From: Chryseobacterium sp. ISL-80
Lineage (GTDB): Bacteria; Bacillota; Bacilli; Bacillales; Cytobacillaceae
Direction: 5' to 3'
Length of the DNA stretch: 64,000 nucleotides
NCBI GenBank assembly: GCA_018613055.1
Contig: JAGGQZ010000017.1
Span: forward strand, 97,572 to 161,571
Below, one piece after another: positions 8,422 to 64,000 of this stretch; the first letter of the stretch is position 1, and each line of letters opens with the position of its first letter. Under the pieces are notes generated by a model. That model had not been told where the DNA came from, did no database searches, and saw only the letters and a list, made by a program, of their open reading frames with translations. A program made the translations under genes and the position numbers.

Positions 8422-8979
8422 TTGGACATTTTGATTGCTCCCAGGCTCTGAAATGTCCTTTAAACTGCTTTTCTTGGACATTTTGGCTGTTCCAACGCTT
8501 CGAAATGTCCTTTAAACCGCTTTTCTTGGACATTTTGGCTGCTACAACGCTCCGAAATGTCCTTTAAACTGCTTTTCTTGGACATTTTTGTGGCTCCAAC
8601 GCTCGGAAATGTCCTTTAAACTGCTTTCTTGGACATTTTGATTGCTCCAACACTCCGAAATGTCCTTTAAACTGCTTTTCTTGGACATTTTGGCTGCTAC
8701 AACGCTCCGAAATGTCCTTTAAACCGCTTTTCTTGGACATTTTGATTGCTTCAACACTCCGAAATGTCCTTTAAACCGCTTTTCTTGGACATTTTGGCTG
8801 CTACAACGCTCGGAAATGTCCTTTAAACTGCTTTTCTTGGACATTGTGATTGCTTCAACACTCCGAAATGTCCTTTAAACTGCTTTTCTTGGACATTTTT
8901 GTGGCTCCAACACTCCGAAATATCCTTTAAACTGCTTTACTTGGACATTTTGACTTTGCCTTGCCTCATAATGTCCATG
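8422..8979. repeat. 52-bp tandem hairpin array A, 11 units
   Basis: Eleven units, with GGACA starting at 8424, 8476, 8528, 8580, 8631, 8683, 8735, 8787, 8839, 8891 and 8943. The period is 52 bp, with one 51-bp step. Each unit has GGACATTT and, 30 bp downstream, AAATGTCC, with a variable 19-bp centre and the linker TTTAAACTGCTTTTCTT. The last unit is degenerate. The array fills the gap between the YczE-like gene and chaA. Since 52 is not a multiple of three, it is not a repeated peptide. Arrays at 15368-15590, 53070-53370 and 63440-64000 share the geometry. Confidence 0.95.
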
Positions 8980-15367: not shown

Positions 15368-15590
15368 ATGGACACTTTTCTGTGCATTTCATCGATTTCT
15401 GTTCATCATCACCCTTATTGACGGACACTTTCTTATGCATTTCTTCCATTTTTGTCCGTCATCGCCCTTATGACGGACACTTTTCCTTTCGTTTCTTCGA
15501 TTTCTGTCCGTCATCACCCTCGTGACGGACACTTTTCCTTGGGTATCATCGATTTCTGTCCGTCATCGCCTTCATGATGGACACTATCCC
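15368..15590. repeat. 52-bp tandem hairpin array C, 5 units
   Basis: GGACA starts at 15370, 15423, 15475, 15527 and 15579, spaced 53, 52, 52 and 52 bp. The central units have GACGGACA pairing with TGTCCGTC and pyrimidine-rich centres. The first has a degenerate right arm and the last has only the left arm. The xGACA to TGTCx outer span is 35 bp, as in array A. It fills the gap between the ATPase terminator and the small gene at 15670. Confidence 0.93.
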
Positions 15591-27116: not shown

Positions 27117-27183
27117 CACCCCTTTATTTTTTTCTTTAAAACAGTTCTATTTCACCTATTAAATCTCCTCTTTTGTGTTCGAT

Positions 27184-27356
27184 AAAATTTTTATAGCGAA
27201 AATCAGATTTTTATAGCGATTTTTTTAGTTTTATAGCGGAAAAATCTATTTTATAGCGATATTTCATTTTTTATAGCGATATTTCATTTTTTATAGCGAA
27301 AATAAAAATATTATAGCGAACTGGAAATTCCGCGCGTTTTTTTCCAGTTCGCCTCC
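27184..27356 (+). repeat. 20-bp-period TATAGCGA array with terminal hairpin
   Basis: TATAGCG starts at 27192, 27212, 27232, 27252, 27272, 27292 and 27312, an exact 20-bp period over seven units. The last unit continues into GCGAACTGGAAA, which pairs with TTTCCAGTTCGC around a GC-rich centre. The hairpin lies next to the 3' end of the response regulator gene. It is non-coding. Confidence 0.95.
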
Positions 27357-34973: not shown

Positions 34974-35133
34974 TATAGGGAGAATCTTATTTTTATAGCG
35001 ACTTTTTCGTTTTTTAGCGAGTTTTTCATTTATATAGCGAGTTTCTCGTTAATATAGCGACTTTTTCATTTTTATAGCGAGTTTCACCTTTTTATAGCGA
35101 ATTGGAAATTATCCGCGTTTTTTCCCAGTTTGC
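34974..35133 (+). repeat. 20-bp-period TATAGCGA array with terminal hairpin
   Basis: TATAGCG-type cores begin at 34994, 35013, 35033, 35053, 35073 and 35093, with a degenerate one (TATAGGG) near 34975. The last runs into GCGAATTGGAAA and, after a GC-rich spacer, CCCAGTTTGC. The hairpin end is next to the 3' end of yfkM. It occupies most of the gap before map. Confidence 0.92.
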
Positions 35134-45776: not shown

Positions 45777-45892
45777 TTGGATTTTCCGTTTGTTTTCCAA
45801 TTCGCTATAAAAATCAAATTTTCGCTATATAAAATGGATTTTCGCTATAATAATTATTTTTTCGCTATAAAACATAAATTTTCGCTATAAAA
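45775..45892 (-). repeat. 20-bp-period TATAGCGA array, reverse orientation
   Basis: CGCTATA starts at 45803, 45823, 45843, 45863 and 45883, an exact 20-bp period. Read on the minus strand it gives TATAGCGA units ending in GCGAATTGGA, which pairs with TCCAAT near 45775-45780. As in the other arrays, the hairpin end faces the 3' end of a gene (the 37-codon gene). Confidence 0.93.
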
Positions 45893-53069: not shown

Positions 53070-53370
53070 TTGCACATTTTGGGGCTGGGGTTTATTTGAG
53101 TTGACTAGGAAACTGCTTTTATTAGACATTTTGGAGCGGAGCTTTGTCTGAAATGTCCAGGAAACCGTTTTTATTAGACAGTTCGGAGTGGAACCGTGTC
53201 TGAAATGTCCAAGAAACTGCTTTTACTAGACATTTTAGTCTGGAGCTTTGTTCGAAATGTCCAGGAAACTGCTTTTATTAGACAGTTCGGAGTGGAACCG
53301 TGTCTGAAATGTCCAAGAAACTGCTTTTACTAGACATTTTAGTCTGGAACTTTGTTCGAAATGTCCAGGA
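53070..53370. repeat. 52-bp tandem hairpin array B, 6 units
   Basis: AGACA starts at 53124, 53176, 53228, 53280 and 53332, exactly 52 bp apart. A degenerate unit begins in register at 53072 (GCACATTTTG). Units have AGACATTT or AGACAGTT and, 30 bp on, AATGTCC. They alternate between two variants. The linker AAACTGCTTTTA resembles that of array A. It fills the gap between the convergent symporter and cydB genes. Confidence 0.93.
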
Positions 53371-53426
53371 AACTCTCTTTAATCCTAAACCCATGAATCC
53401 CTTCTTAGATCACTTCCCTCAAAGAG

Positions 53427-53455: not shown

Positions 53456-54484
53456 TTATTGGTATCCTTTTGCATTCTCTTTGATGATTTTATCTTTGAA
53501 CAATGTGTAGCTCCATGATTGGTAGGCAAGGATGATTGGCACGAAGATGATTGCGACGATGAACATGATTGTCAGGTTGAGTTTGCTTCCTGCGGCGTCA
53601 AATAGACTGACACTGTAGGAGCTGTCAATTCTTGATGGCAGCATGTTCGGGAACATCCCGATGAATCCGAACGCCATTTTTGTGAATATGGTTACGCACA
53701 CTGAAGTGAACGCATAGCCGATTTTCTTTTTAAAGATAAAGTAAGCCGAAGCAATCATCGCGGCCAATGCGAGAATCGGCACGATCCAAAGGACTGGATG
53801 CTCTGTGTAGTTATCCAGCAATGGCGTCCGGTTCACCGTTGCCAGGAAGAAAAGTGACAACATTGCTGGCGCCACTCCTGCCAACACTCGCGAAATCCTG
53901 TAAGCCCGCACTGCGGTTTGTCCTGATGTTTTTAATTGAATCCATAATGATCCAGATAAAAGGAACAGAGAAACAAACAGTAATCCTCCTAAAATCCCGT
54001 ATCCGTTGAGAAGGCTGAACAGATTCCCTTCGTAGCCATTTGCTCCGATCATCAGTCCGCGATACAAATTGGCAAAGGTCACCCCAAACAAGAAAGCGAT
54101 CAGGAAGCTTCCGGCAAAAAAGCTCCATTTACAGGCTACCTGCCATATCGGGTTGTCATCCTTATGCATGAATTCGAGCCCGACCGCCCTGATGAACAAA
54201 GCAATCAATACAAGGAACAACGGAGTGTACAAAAAGCTGAACATGTCCGCATAGACGGCCGGGAATGCCGCGAAGGTCGCACCTCCGGCGGTAATCAGCC
54301 AGACCTCATTCCCGCCCCAGAACGGTCCGACTGCTTCCTGGAGCTGGTTTCGTTCCTGGCGGTTTTTCGCAGTGAAAGGCAATAGCATCCCTGTTCCGAG
54401 CGTGTATCCGTCAAGAATGAAATAAACGGTCCAGATCAAGCCCCAAAGCCCGAACCAGATAATCGCAAGTGTATCATGAGACAT
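53456..54484 (-). CDS. cydB: cytochrome bd ubiquinol/menaquinol oxidase subunit II
   Basis: A 342-residue membrane protein with about nine hydrophobic segments, subunit II of the bd-type oxidase. FGLWGLIWTVYFILDGYTLG at the start, GPFWGGNEVWLITAGGATFA and FPNMLPS near the end are family hallmarks. It overlaps cydA by 11 bp. In B. subtilis cydAB is followed by cydCD, but here a terminator and repeat array come next, so the assembly ABC transporter must be elsewhere or absent. Confidence 0.93.
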   Translation of the reverse strand: MSHDTLAIIWFGLWGLIWTVYFILDGYTLGTGMLLPFTAKNRQERNQLQEAVGPFWGGNEVWLITAGGATFAAFPAVYADMFSFLYTPLFLVLIALFIRAVGLEFMHKDDNPIWQVACKWSFFAGSFLIAFLFGVTFANLYRGLMIGANGYEGNLFSLLNGYGILGGLLFVSLFLLSGSLWIQLKTSGQTAVRAYRISRVLAGVAPAMLSLFFLATVNRTPLLDNYTEHPVLWIVPILALAAMIASAYFIFKKKIGYAFTSVCVTIFTKMAFGFIGMFPNMLPSRIDSSYSVSLFDAAGSKLNLTIMFIVAIIFVPIILAYQSWSYTLFKDKIIKENAKGYQ

Positions 54485-55826
54485 GCTTCACGCCTCCTTC
54501 AAGACCAAATTGGACCTCTGATTCCGGTCCTTTTTTTGCGTATTTTATGATCAAATAGACATCCGCGATCAGCAGAACGGTGTAGAAAATGACGAGCGCT
54601 GCCAGCGAAAAGACGACTTGCGATACAGCAATAGGAGACACTCCTTCTGATGTCTTCATCAATCCATAAACCACCCATGGCTGTCGTCCTGCTTCTGCCA
54701 CCATCCAGCCAGCATTGATTGCAAGGTATGGAAGAAGCACGGAGTAAAGGACAAGTTTCAAATATCTCGGTGAGTTCTCCAGTTTATTTTTCCGGTACAA
54801 ATACAATCCGTACCACGATACAGCAAGGAAAAAGACGCCGAGCGCGACCATCACCCTGAAGGCGTAAAATACCAGTTCAACATTTGGCCGTTCATCCTTC
54901 GCTATATCATTAAGTCCTGTTACCTCGCCATCGAAGGAATTCGTGTAAAAAAAGCTGCCAAGCTTAGGAATGCTGATTGCTTCGAAAGCATTCCTCTCAT
55001 TTTCCTGATCAGGAATCTGGATGAGATGGAATGGCATGGCCTTCTGGGTTTCCCAGACTGCTTCCATCGCCGCTCCTTTGGCCGGCTGCATTTGAGCTGC
55101 GAATACCCCGGATTGATGGCCGATGAATGGAGTCAGCGTCGCAGAGAAAAGTGCCATTGCCAGCCCGTATTTGAAAGATTTTTTATAAAATGCTGTTTCA
55201 TTTTTCCTCAGTAGATGATAGGCACTAATGGCCATCATGAAAAATGCGCCGACAATGTAGGCACTGACGACTGTATGTACGAACATATACCATGCATAAG
55301 GATTGGTGACGAGCTCTGCGAAGCTGTTCAGCTCTACACGGCCATTTTTCAGGACATAGCCGACCGGATTTTGCATGAAACCATTTGCCGTGATGATCCA
55401 GAGTGCGGAGAGATTCGTGCCGAGCGCAACCATCCAAATTGAGATCGCCCTCATCTTCGGCGAAAACTTATCCTTGCCGAACAGCCAGATGCCCATGAAG
55501 GTCGATTCAAGGAAAAAAGCAACCAGTGCTTCAATCGCGAGCGGTGAACCGAAAATATCCCCCATGTACTTCGAATACTCAGACCAGTTCGTCCCAAATT
55601 GGAACTCCATCGTAATGCCCGTGATGACCCCAAGAACAAAGTTGATTGCGAACAGCCTTCCCCAATAATCCGCCATCCGTTTATAGGTCTGGTCAAGGGT
55701 ACGGGCATACTTCGTCTCCATGATGGCAACAAGAATGACAAGCCCAAGCGTCAGCGGCACAAACAAGAAATGATAAAACACGGTGACAGCAAACTGGATC
55801 CGGCTTAAAATCAAGACCTCATCCAT
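54474..55826 (-). CDS. cydA: cytochrome bd oxidase subunit I
   Basis: A 450-residue membrane subunit carrying the haems. FAVTVFYHFLFVPLTLGLVI with the N-terminal haem-ligand His, GITMEFQFGTNW, and GWMVAEAGRQPW with FHLIQIPDQENE from the quinol-binding loop are conserved. The Q-loop is of the short type usual in Firmicutes. The oxidase works at low oxygen. A perfect TGTGA-N6-TCACA site lies 125 bp upstream, suggesting redox control. GGGAGG precedes the ATG. Confidence 0.94.
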   Translation of the reverse strand: MDEVLILSRIQFAVTVFYHFLFVPLTLGLVILVAIMETKYARTLDQTYKRMADYWGRLFAINFVLGVITGITMEFQFGTNWSEYSKYMGDIFGSPLAIEALVAFFLESTFMGIWLFGKDKFSPKMRAISIWMVALGTNLSALWIITANGFMQNPVGYVLKNGRVELNSFAELVTNPYAWYMFVHTVVSAYIVGAFFMMAISAYHLLRKNETAFYKKSFKYGLAMALFSATLTPFIGHQSGVFAAQMQPAKGAAMEAVWETQKAMPFHLIQIPDQENERNAFEAISIPKLGSFFYTNSFDGEVTGLNDIAKDERPNVELVFYAFRVMVALGVFFLAVSWYGLYLYRKNKLENSPRYLKLVLYSVLLPYLAINAGWMVAEAGRQPWVVYGLMKTSEGVSPIAVSQVVFSLAALVIFYTVLLIADVYLIIKYAKKGPESEVQFGLEGGVKHVS

Positions 55827-55950
55827 TTTTGGTTCCTCCCAAGTTTTTAGTTTGTGAAAAAGTTAACATACTCATAATTCTATTTTAAAAAAACTTTGTG
55901 AGTGATATTGAAGATTTTTGTAGATATTTTGTGACATTTTCCCTGTATTT

Positions 55951-55966
55951 TGTGATGCGCGTCACA
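55951..55966. promoter_or_regulatory. Fnr/Crp-type palindrome upstream of cydA
   Basis: TGTGATGCGCGTCACA is a perfect TGTGA-N6-TCACA. Two more TTTGTGA half-sites lie at about 55895 and 55929, between it and cydA. Fnr, Crp-like or Rex-type regulators are candidates. Confidence 0.65.
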
Positions 55967-55969
55967 GAC

Positions 55970-56000
55970 ATAAAAAAACAGGCCCTTTATCAAGGACCTA
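55970..56000 (-). terminator. terminator of the peroxiredoxin gene
   Basis: AGGTCCTT pairs with AAGGGCCT (one G-T) and is followed by seven Ts on the minus strand. Confidence 0.8.
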
Positions 56001-56006
56001 AACTCA

Positions 56007-56618
56007 TTAAATATTCCCGATATTCGATGGACTTGTACTGACTCCCTGCTGACCGGGCACCCAGTTCGCCGGTACCCCTTTTCCTGTTTGCTTCGCATAT
56101 TGCAGAGCCTGAAGAATCCTCAGATGTTCCGGGAGATTCCTCCCCACGTTTCCTGGATAAGTCAACTTGGCTCTAATAATACCCTCGGGATCAATGAATA
56201 CCGAAGTCCTGAAGCAGGCACCTGTCGTTTCATCTAGCACCCTATAGGCACGGCTGATGACCTGTGTCCTGTCACTAACCATAGGGAATGTCACATTTTT
56301 CAGTGATGGTGAGGTTTCTTTAAAGACGCGATGGCTGTAAACACTGTCCGTGCTGATGGACATCAGTTCTGCACCCATCGCCTTTATATATGGATAAATA
56401 GCGGCGACCGCCGCCAGCTCTGTCGGTCAGACAAAGGTGAAATCGCTCGGATAGAAAAATAAAATGACCCAATTTCCCCGATAATCCTCGAGATTGATTT
56501 TCTTGATATCACCATTGATAACGGCTTCTGCAGTAAATAATGGTGCCTGGTCGTCACGGTTCGCACAAAAAACAGTCGGGCATTGCACTATATCTTTGGC
56601 ATACAATTTTTCTTCCAT
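56007..56618 (-). CDS. selenocysteine peroxiredoxin (in-frame UGA at the peroxidatic site)
   Basis: A 203-residue AhpC/TSA peroxiredoxin if the UGA at 56429-56427 is read as selenocysteine (residue 64). The active site reads PSDFTFV-U-PTEL where the family has PxDFTFVCPTE. The other catalytic residues, Thr61 and Arg137 ([13 protein letters not shown]), are intact, as are downstream regions GNVGRN and PANWVPGQ. The usual resolving Cys before PANW is replaced by Val; Cys135 might substitute. It would reduce hydroperoxides or peroxynitrite using thiol donors. A SECIS-like hairpin follows the UGA. Without Sec insertion only a 63-residue fragment forms. The start has AAAGGAGGG. No selABCD is in the window. 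A disabled gene is the alternative, but there is no other damage. Confidence 0.85.
56399..56429 (-). promoter_or_regulatory. bacterial SECIS-like element directly after the UGA
   Basis: After the UGA (56429-56427) come ten bases, then UGGCGGC (56416-56410), the loop GGUC (56409-56406) and GCCGCUA (56405-56399). The seven-pair stem includes one G-U. The loop begins 17 nt after the UGA. In E. coli fdhF the SelB-bound apical loop is also GGUC, about 18 nt after the UGA. Confidence 0.75.
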
Positions 56619-56731
56619 ACCAGCGCCCTCCTTTCGTAAAATTTCTATCTATACAATCATATGCTGTTCATTTTTTATATTTCAGGTTCCCTCAGGAAAA
56701 ACTACATGAGACAAGAAAGGAGGGTTCACGA

Positions 56732-56896
56732 ATGAGCAGAGGAAAAGAGTTCAACCATAAGAAAAAAGGCCATCCAGGAGACTTGCCTGCAGGTGCACTA
56801 AAAGCAAAACGTCCTGAAACCGAAGCACAGGAAGACGAGGAATTCCTGGTTGTCCAAGAAGCTTTCAAAAATCGGATTGAGGAAGATGAAGTATAG
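56732..56896 (+). CDS. 54-residue charged small protein
   Basis: ATG 56732 has GGAGGG about eight bases upstream. The product begins MSRGKEFNHKKKGHPGD and continues with an acidic, helical second half (EDEEFLVVQEAF). It is hydrophilic with no membrane segment. The family is not recognised. A frame open upstream to 56540 is rejected because it runs antisense through the peroxiredoxin start. A good terminator follows. Confidence 0.65.
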   Translation: MSRGKEFNHKKKGHPGDLPAGALKAKRPETEAQEDEEFLVVQEAFKNRIEEDEV

Positions 56897-56901
56897 CTTA
56901 T

Positions 56902-56934
56902 TCTGGAACCTGGCGATCGCCGGGTTCTTTTTTT
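56902..56934 (+). terminator. terminator of the 54-codon gene
   Basis: GAACCTGGCG pairs with CGCCGGGTTC (one G-T), followed by about seven Ts. Confidence 0.85.
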
Positions 56935-57018
56935 GAAACTTTTTCCACATGAACATCGTATAGTTATCTATACACAATCTTTTCACACTCAGCACATTAA
57001 ATTTGGGGAGGAATAAAC

Positions 57019-63396: not shown

Positions 63397-63439
63397 TGAT
63401 TGGGTTGGAATTTTATTGTGACACTTTTGAATTCCGCTC

Positions 63440-64000
63440 TGCTTCAGACAGCTTTTCTGCTTTTGCTCTCAAACTTGTCCGAACCTGGGGCTACTTCGGA
63501 CAGCTTTTCTGCTTTTGCCCTTCAACCTGTCCGAACTTGGATCTACTTCCGACAGCTTTTCTGCTTTCCCCCTCCAAGCTGTCCGAACTTGGGGCTGCTT
63601 CGGACAGCTTTTCTGCTTTTGCTCTCCAACCTGTCCGAACTTGGATCTGCTTCGGACAGCTTTTCTGCTTTTGCCCTTCAACCTGTCCGAACTTGGGGCT
63701 ACTTCGGACAACTTTCCCTCTTCTCTCATCAAACCTGTCAAAATCACAGGCTTTTCTTGACAGCTTCCCCTCTTCTCCCATCAAACCTGTCAAAATAACA
63801 AGCTTTTCTTGACAGCTTTCCCGCTACTCCCATCAAACCTGTCAAAATAACAAGCTTTTCTTGACAGCTTCCCCTCTTCTCCCATCAAACCTGTCAAAAT
63901 AACAAGCTTTTCTTGACAGCTTTCCCGCTACTCTCATCAAACCTGTCAAAATAACAAGCTTTTCTTGACAGCTTTCCCTCTACTCCCATCAAACCTGTCA
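63440..64000. repeat. 52-bp tandem hairpin array E/F, at least 11 units
   Basis: Units begin at 63442, 63494, 63546, 63598, 63650, 63702, 63754, 63806, 63858, 63910 and 63962, exactly 52 bp apart, and run off the window. The first five have CGGACAG-type left and CTGTCCG right arms. The sixth is a hybrid, and the rest have TTGACAG with CTGTCAA. The GACA to TGTC outer span is 35 bp throughout. Several frames through it are open by chance, but 52 is not divisible by three. Confidence 0.95.

Follow-up and report, generated by a model that had tools for sequence, protein, structure and literature searches.

A UGA-containing AhpC-type peroxiredoxin gene of Bacilli with a predicted selenocysteine at its catalytic position

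The reverse strand of the window (the whole stretch of 64,000 nucleotides that was analysed) carries a peroxiredoxin gene whose frame holds a single internal TGA and then runs on, with no further internal stop, to a terminal TAA (Table 1). The original prediction, made from the letters of the DNA, had joined two apparent fragments across this TGA into one frame, placed the UGA exactly on the catalytic cysteine codon and described Thr61, Arg137, the ribosome site and the terminator as intact, and closer analysis bears it out on each of these points. The peroxiredoxin PxxxTxxC site is made up of Pro57, Thr61 and residue 64, and Arg137 lies further on (in 57 aligned sequences Arg137 is invariant and Thr61 nearly so), more distant aligned loci have TGC or TGT at the codon in question, and both the Shine-Dalgarno-like element and the terminator-like hairpin are visible. 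Two genes lie downstream on the same strand. The first is similar to cydA, which encodes subunit I of cytochrome bd oxidase, with a score below the curated cut-off; the second is probably cydB, judged by its place and sequence. A functional link to these neighbours was considered and rejected: the cytochrome bd genes adjoin the peroxiredoxin gene in eight of nine near relatives (L028-L036, of which L032 is cut by a contig end), but the adjacency was not seen beyond them, the genes being absent beside it in L037-L039, and they are therefore not a conserved partner.

Table 1. Features of the locus and of the selenocysteine machinery (window positions unless a contig or locus is named)
Feature	Position	Strand	Description
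Peroxiredoxin gene	56007..56618	(-)	203 residues, predicted Sec at 64; TAA stop 56009-56007
In-frame TGA	56427..56429	(-)	codon 64, peroxidatic position, between DFTFV and PTEL
SECIS-like hairpin	56399..56416	(-)	UGGCGGC-GGUC-GCCGCUA; apical loop GGUC 56409-56406, 17 nt after UGA
Shine-Dalgarno-like AAAGGAGG	56627..56634	(-)	upstream of ATG 56618; from sequence
Terminator-like hairpin, then T-run	55972..55999	(-)	from sequence and fold
Downstream genes	53456..55826	(-)	cydA-like and probable cydB
cydA-like gene	54474..55826	(-)	
Probable cydB	53456..54484	(-)	
selA	C13:50291-51676		562.9 bits, over curated cut-off
SelW-like Rdx gene	L023 1343-1110	(-)	own genome C13, head-to-head with UGA-bearing selD
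selD	C13:52235-53161		399.5 bits, over curated cut-off; one in-frame TGA
selB	C13:254478-256340		372.5 bits, over cut-off
tRNA-Sec, anticodon TCA	C7:110238-110330		60.6 bits, over curated cut-off

The encoded protein matches Pfam AhpC-TSA with 121.2 bits, and its AlphaFold model, built on 57 sequences, has a mean pLDDT of 91.4 and finds human Prx3, human Prx2 and Salmonella AhpC among its top fold matches. It thus shows the fold, the PxxxTxxC/U motif and the arginine active site (Arg137) of the AhpC/Prx1 subfamily, and the 50 solved structures listed are 32-43% identical to it. Unlike AhpC, however, it bears a UGA (predicted Sec) in place of the cysteine and has GVPANW with no C-terminal resolving cysteine, which sets it apart from the typical 2-Cys peroxiredoxins. 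An ordinary Cys AhpC with EVCPAKW is also encoded in the same genome (L018).

The TGA recurs at the same codon in relatives. Among 66 named-genome loci, codon 64 is TGA in 12, which are all those at 57-94% identity (their record titles name Mesobacillus, Cytobacillus, Bacillus, Sporosarcina and Ammoniphilus), and the aligned codon is TGC or TGT in the remaining 54, at 25-43% identity; the homologue alignment proposed in the original prediction therefore separates close relatives with UGA from distant ones with Cys. Among the matches listed, a UGA orthologue at no less than 56% identity occurs in about half of the sampled family genomes (96 of 193, counted by hand from a match table that holds all but the weakest matches), and the gene is present in all 21 genomes of the same genus. 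Below these orthologues the family genomes show an identity gap down to at most 45%, where stop-free matches begin. A second stop (TAG or TAA) in five family rows (L146, L157, L158, L162 and L167) is the protein's own end or lies a few codons before it. In the set of 398 class genomes, matches reaching 54% identity occur in 15, every one with TGA (three of these genomes are shared with the family set), and the best stop-free match is 50% identical (G491); in weaker class matches with TGA at 41-45% identity, such as those of G469 and G505, the TGA may be the protein's own end. Among the matches listed in the 193 family or 398 class genomes, no Cys version at or above 54% identity was found. The in-frame UGA thus stands where homologues, including the AhpC of the same genome, have Cys, which is the pattern of a bacterial selenoprotein, and the presence of the same TGA at the same codon across relatives excludes a sequencing error or a private mutation.

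Both halves of the gene are under purifying selection and are maintained as one protein. dN/dS amounts to 0.04-0.08 after the UGA (six usable of eight pairs) and to 0.05-0.22 before it (five computable of eight), several pairs having saturated dS; the L035 pair yielded no dS after the UGA, and L108, in which a one-codon insertion after the UGA inflates the ungapped comparison, was left out. Further inactivating changes, which the original prediction had named as evidence against itself, were not found in relatives, and its judgement that more than random nonsense mutation is at work is upheld by the close named relatives and the family genomes alike. That a chance TGA has simply killed an AhpC-like gene is hence barely credible: translation with table 11 does give two fragments, and fragments of the part after the UGA abound in the databases, but the identical codon recurs throughout the family and class sets, selection persists after the UGA, the window gene has no other internal stop, and its start, ribosome site and terminator-like hairpin are all present.

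The database entries themselves are instructive. Among the matches listed (120 of 514 homologues), 87 are post-UGA fragments, 13 have Trp at the peroxidatic position (P0001, P0002, P0003, P0005 and nine further proteins) and 20 have Cys, so that most are either fragments or carry Trp at the active site, and many are annotated from a start directly after the UGA (136 aa). Judging from the protein sequences, the Trp homologues are probably gene calls made under a code in which TGA means Trp, and gene annotation apparently often splits the UGA protein in two.

The genome (4.75 Mb in 35 contigs, estimated to be 100% complete) is equipped to decode UGA as selenocysteine. The search for selA, selB, selD and tRNA-Sec by which the original prediction proposed to check itself returned all four over their cut-offs (Table 1). 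In-frame UGAs also stand at textbook Sec places in selD (KAG-U-GCK) and in a 78-residue SelW-like Rdx gene located between selA and selD (EFCMM-U-NYAPK), and of the six formate dehydrogenase alpha genes that exceed the cut-off, two carry a TGA at CNRT-U-HAPS (L126 on C5 and L127 on C13 of the same genome); the peroxiredoxin is therefore not the sole candidate selenoprotein here. Ordinary annotation would truncate both the SelW-like gene and selD at the UGA. Besides these two, C25 of this genome has a further Fdh-like match in which a TGA was noted (C25:24175-24927).

The distribution of the UGA gene follows that of the machinery. selA and tRNA-Sec were each found over cut-off in 172 of the 193 family genomes (the tRNA-Sec search used stricter filters than that for selA, and genomes below its cut-off were read off by hand), and the UGA gene occurs in none of the 21 genomes without selA over cut-off (Fisher p = 2.8e-7). 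By hand count, tRNA-Sec is over cut-off in 94 of the 96 genomes with the UGA gene; the exceptions are G079 and G161, whose assemblies are 66% and 85% complete; a selA match is present in each, with an internal TAG in the G161 match. Conversely, G179 and G183 (80-81% complete) have tRNA-Sec and no selA over cut-off, and all 19 genomes without either gene over cut-off also lack the UGA gene. One statement of the original prediction, that selenoproteins are uncommon in Bacillaceae, did not survive these counts: with the machinery in about nine of ten family genomes, the use of selenocysteine looks far broader than earlier assumed.

As judged from the alignment, the UGA is followed by a SECIS-like hairpin that is conserved and covaries. 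Its codons 69-73 rank 1, 2, 3, 6 and 4 for synonymous constraint among 97 conserved degenerate columns (computed on 32 distinct sequences), and not one of 200,000 five-column draws was as constrained. In 60 distinct sequences 99.2% of stem cells pair, and none of 500 shuffles did as well in pairing percentage, in covariation score or in the count of two-sided cells. Columns 18 and 27, both synonymous third positions, form G-C in 28 sequences, A-U in 25 and G-U in seven, and are never unpaired. At the level of whole stem pairs, only one of six shows two-sided change, a count equalled in 142 of the 500 shuffles, and the stem has no more pair types than the shuffles do. In the outer pair three cells fail to pair, and when the columns are slid by -3 or +3, 92% and 88% of cells, respectively, still pair. 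The window hairpin taken alone is unremarkable (566 of 5000 synonymous recodings are at least as stable, 114 of them with a GG apical loop); the case therefore rests on the comparison, and we rejected the stability of the single sequence as proof. An Rfam scan of 55700-57000 for a known SECIS family gave no match above gathering scores. The hairpin has the form that the accessible text of PMC1088965 gives as the rule for bacterial SECIS elements, in which a stem-loop whose small apical loop contains G closely follows the UGA.

Similar structures follow the other UGAs of the genome. GGUCU lies 18 nt downstream of the UGA in both UGA-bearing fdhA genes (spacing by hand count); the predicted fold of L127 has it as its loop, while in L126 it is flanked, by eye, by perfectly complementary arms but the minimum-energy fold adopts a different register. 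The folds after the UGAs of selD and the SelW-like gene have G-GUU-C and GUC at their apices. Among the 60 distinct peroxiredoxin rows, AGUU replaces the GGUC loop in two (L145 and L176), and the SelB of these genomes may read a different loop. The AGUU of these divergent UGA peroxiredoxins matches the loop in six of nine folds of PrxU, a selenoprotein family discussed below.

Taken together, the machinery genes, the conserved UGA and the conserved covarying hairpin support the selenoprotein reading of the original prediction, and it is very probable that the TGA is read as selenocysteine to give a 203-residue AhpC/Prx1-type peroxiredoxin with Sec as its peroxidatic residue. A different decoding of the UGA, either by near-cognate read-through with tRNA-Trp or by re-initiation to yield two polypeptides, would suit the 13 Trp homologues and the many proteins annotated from just after the UGA, both among the matches listed, yet we consider it very improbable. 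Trp is incapable of peroxidatic chemistry, the N-terminal piece left by re-initiation would stop just before its own catalytic residue, and neither version accounts for the co-occurrence of the gene with selA and tRNA-Sec or for the similar hairpins after the genome's other UGAs. Pseudogene, sequencing error and Trp read-through were all rejected on conservation and co-occurrence.

Selenocysteine peroxiredoxins are a known family, as the accessible parts of PMC1794560, PMC5029168 and PMC13188914 describe. The closest comparison is with PrxU, whose first description came from Eubacterium acidaminophilum (Soehling 2001, as cited in the available portions of PMC13188914 and PMC8533274). A search of 154 genomes returned nine PrxU over cut-off, all with TGA, and, like the window protein, these are AhpC-like, with TxxU and with PTEL directly after the UGA in all nine, and mostly lack the resolving cysteine (eight of nine); six of the nine fold into a hairpin after the UGA, with an AGUU loop (GGUC in the window gene). 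Filing the window protein under PrxU was rejected by score and tree position: it scores 169.6 bits against the PrxU model (NF040737), short of the cut-off of 270, and in a tree with PrxU the UGA proteins form one clade (support 99/99) that is split from PrxU with support 98/97, PrxU falling on the side of the ordinary Cys AhpC (the tree holds seven of the nine PrxU and 26 of the 45 UGA rows of a 57-sequence alignment, and was rooted at the midpoint for drawing). Nested inside the UGA clade (96/96, and 89/89 in a second tree) is P0013, a Cys form from Alteribacter with 51% identity, likely the result of a later change from Sec to Cys. Two adjacent UGA peroxiredoxin genes in genome G591, with FVUATEL and FVUPTEL (L207 1453-2670, reverse strand), fall outside the clade and nearest to it.

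The window protein also resembles other bacterial 'Prx, TxxU' Sec peroxiredoxins (assigned to COG1225 in PMC9312934 and PMC1088965 and to PF00578 in PMC13188914) in having Sec, predicted here, at the peroxidatic site; in their accessible parts, these three accounts name no AhpC-type Bacilli lineage. The Bacilli UGA clade is likewise not described in the accessible parts of PMC1794560, PMC5029168, PMC13188914, PMC9312934, PMC7409299, PMC1088965, PMC8533274, PMC2398784 and PMC5330540, and no description of it was found in the literature searched, which left out most subscription journals. What appears to be new is the AhpC-type Sec lineage itself, its breadth in Bacilli and its separation from PrxU.

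We infer Sec insertion, peroxidase activity and the reductant from sequence. SelA would use selenophosphate supplied by SelD to turn the serine carried by tRNA-Sec(UCA) into selenocysteine, and SelB would recognise the GGUC hairpin downstream of the UGA and deliver the charged tRNA. Seated in the usual peroxiredoxin pocket by Pro57, Thr61 and Arg137, the selenolate would reduce hydrogen peroxide or organic hydroperoxides and, by the expected chemistry, become a selenenic acid, which would then be reduced by an external thiol such as bacillithiol or thioredoxin in a one-Sec cycle. Such a cycle is most likely the mechanism because none of the copies read has the AhpC resolving-cysteine motif (0 of 88 UGA proteins, whose start codons were picked by script) and no other cysteine is conserved: of the 88, 49 have Cys18 and 34 have Cys13, no column is cysteine throughout, and 18 proteins are free of cysteine. 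The related sequences compared here are not independent of one another, and the 88 include near-copies. The window protein itself contains Cys13, Cys18 and Cys135, as would befit a Sec + Cys peroxidase in which N-terminal Cys18 or Cys13 is the resolving thiol and thioredoxin the reductant. This alternative, which likewise takes Sec to be inserted, is nonetheless unlikely, since residues that are nowhere universal, in a clade with cysteine-free members, cannot be its general mechanism; Cys18 and Cys13 could still assist resolving in some species. The resolving cysteine is also missing in most PrxU, and its absence is therefore not unique to the Bacilli clade. For the external-thiol cycle, bacillithiol, which cells of this host group presumably use, is a guess from the host group and the absent cysteines.

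More tentatively still, and with more doubt than confidence, the clade may represent a widespread lineage of one-Sec, bacillithiol-dependent selenoperoxidases of spore-forming Bacilli, cysteine-free in some species and overlooked because annotation splits the gene at the UGA. If true, this lineage would be a bacterial counterpart of the glutathione peroxidases in a different fold family. The clade also constitutes a natural experiment, with predicted Sec, no resolving cysteine, some species thiol-free and one apparent Cys revertant (P0013), whose position inside the clade indicates that Cys can serve; it opens to direct test the reason for selenium in peroxiredoxins and the nature of the reductant of a selenenic acid in cells that presumably use bacillithiol.

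Elsewhere in the window, four tandem arrays with a 52-base period were observed (8422-8976, 15368-15589, 53107-53374 and 63439-64000), with units that differ between arrays; the unit at 8422 has the inverted ends GGACATTT...AAATGTCC and that at 53107 the inverted ends AGACATTT...AAATGTCC. A dispersed short repeat, consisting of arrays of a 20-base unit with TTTTATAGCGA, occurs at 27182-27320, 34989-35100 and, on the reverse strand, 45801-45892.
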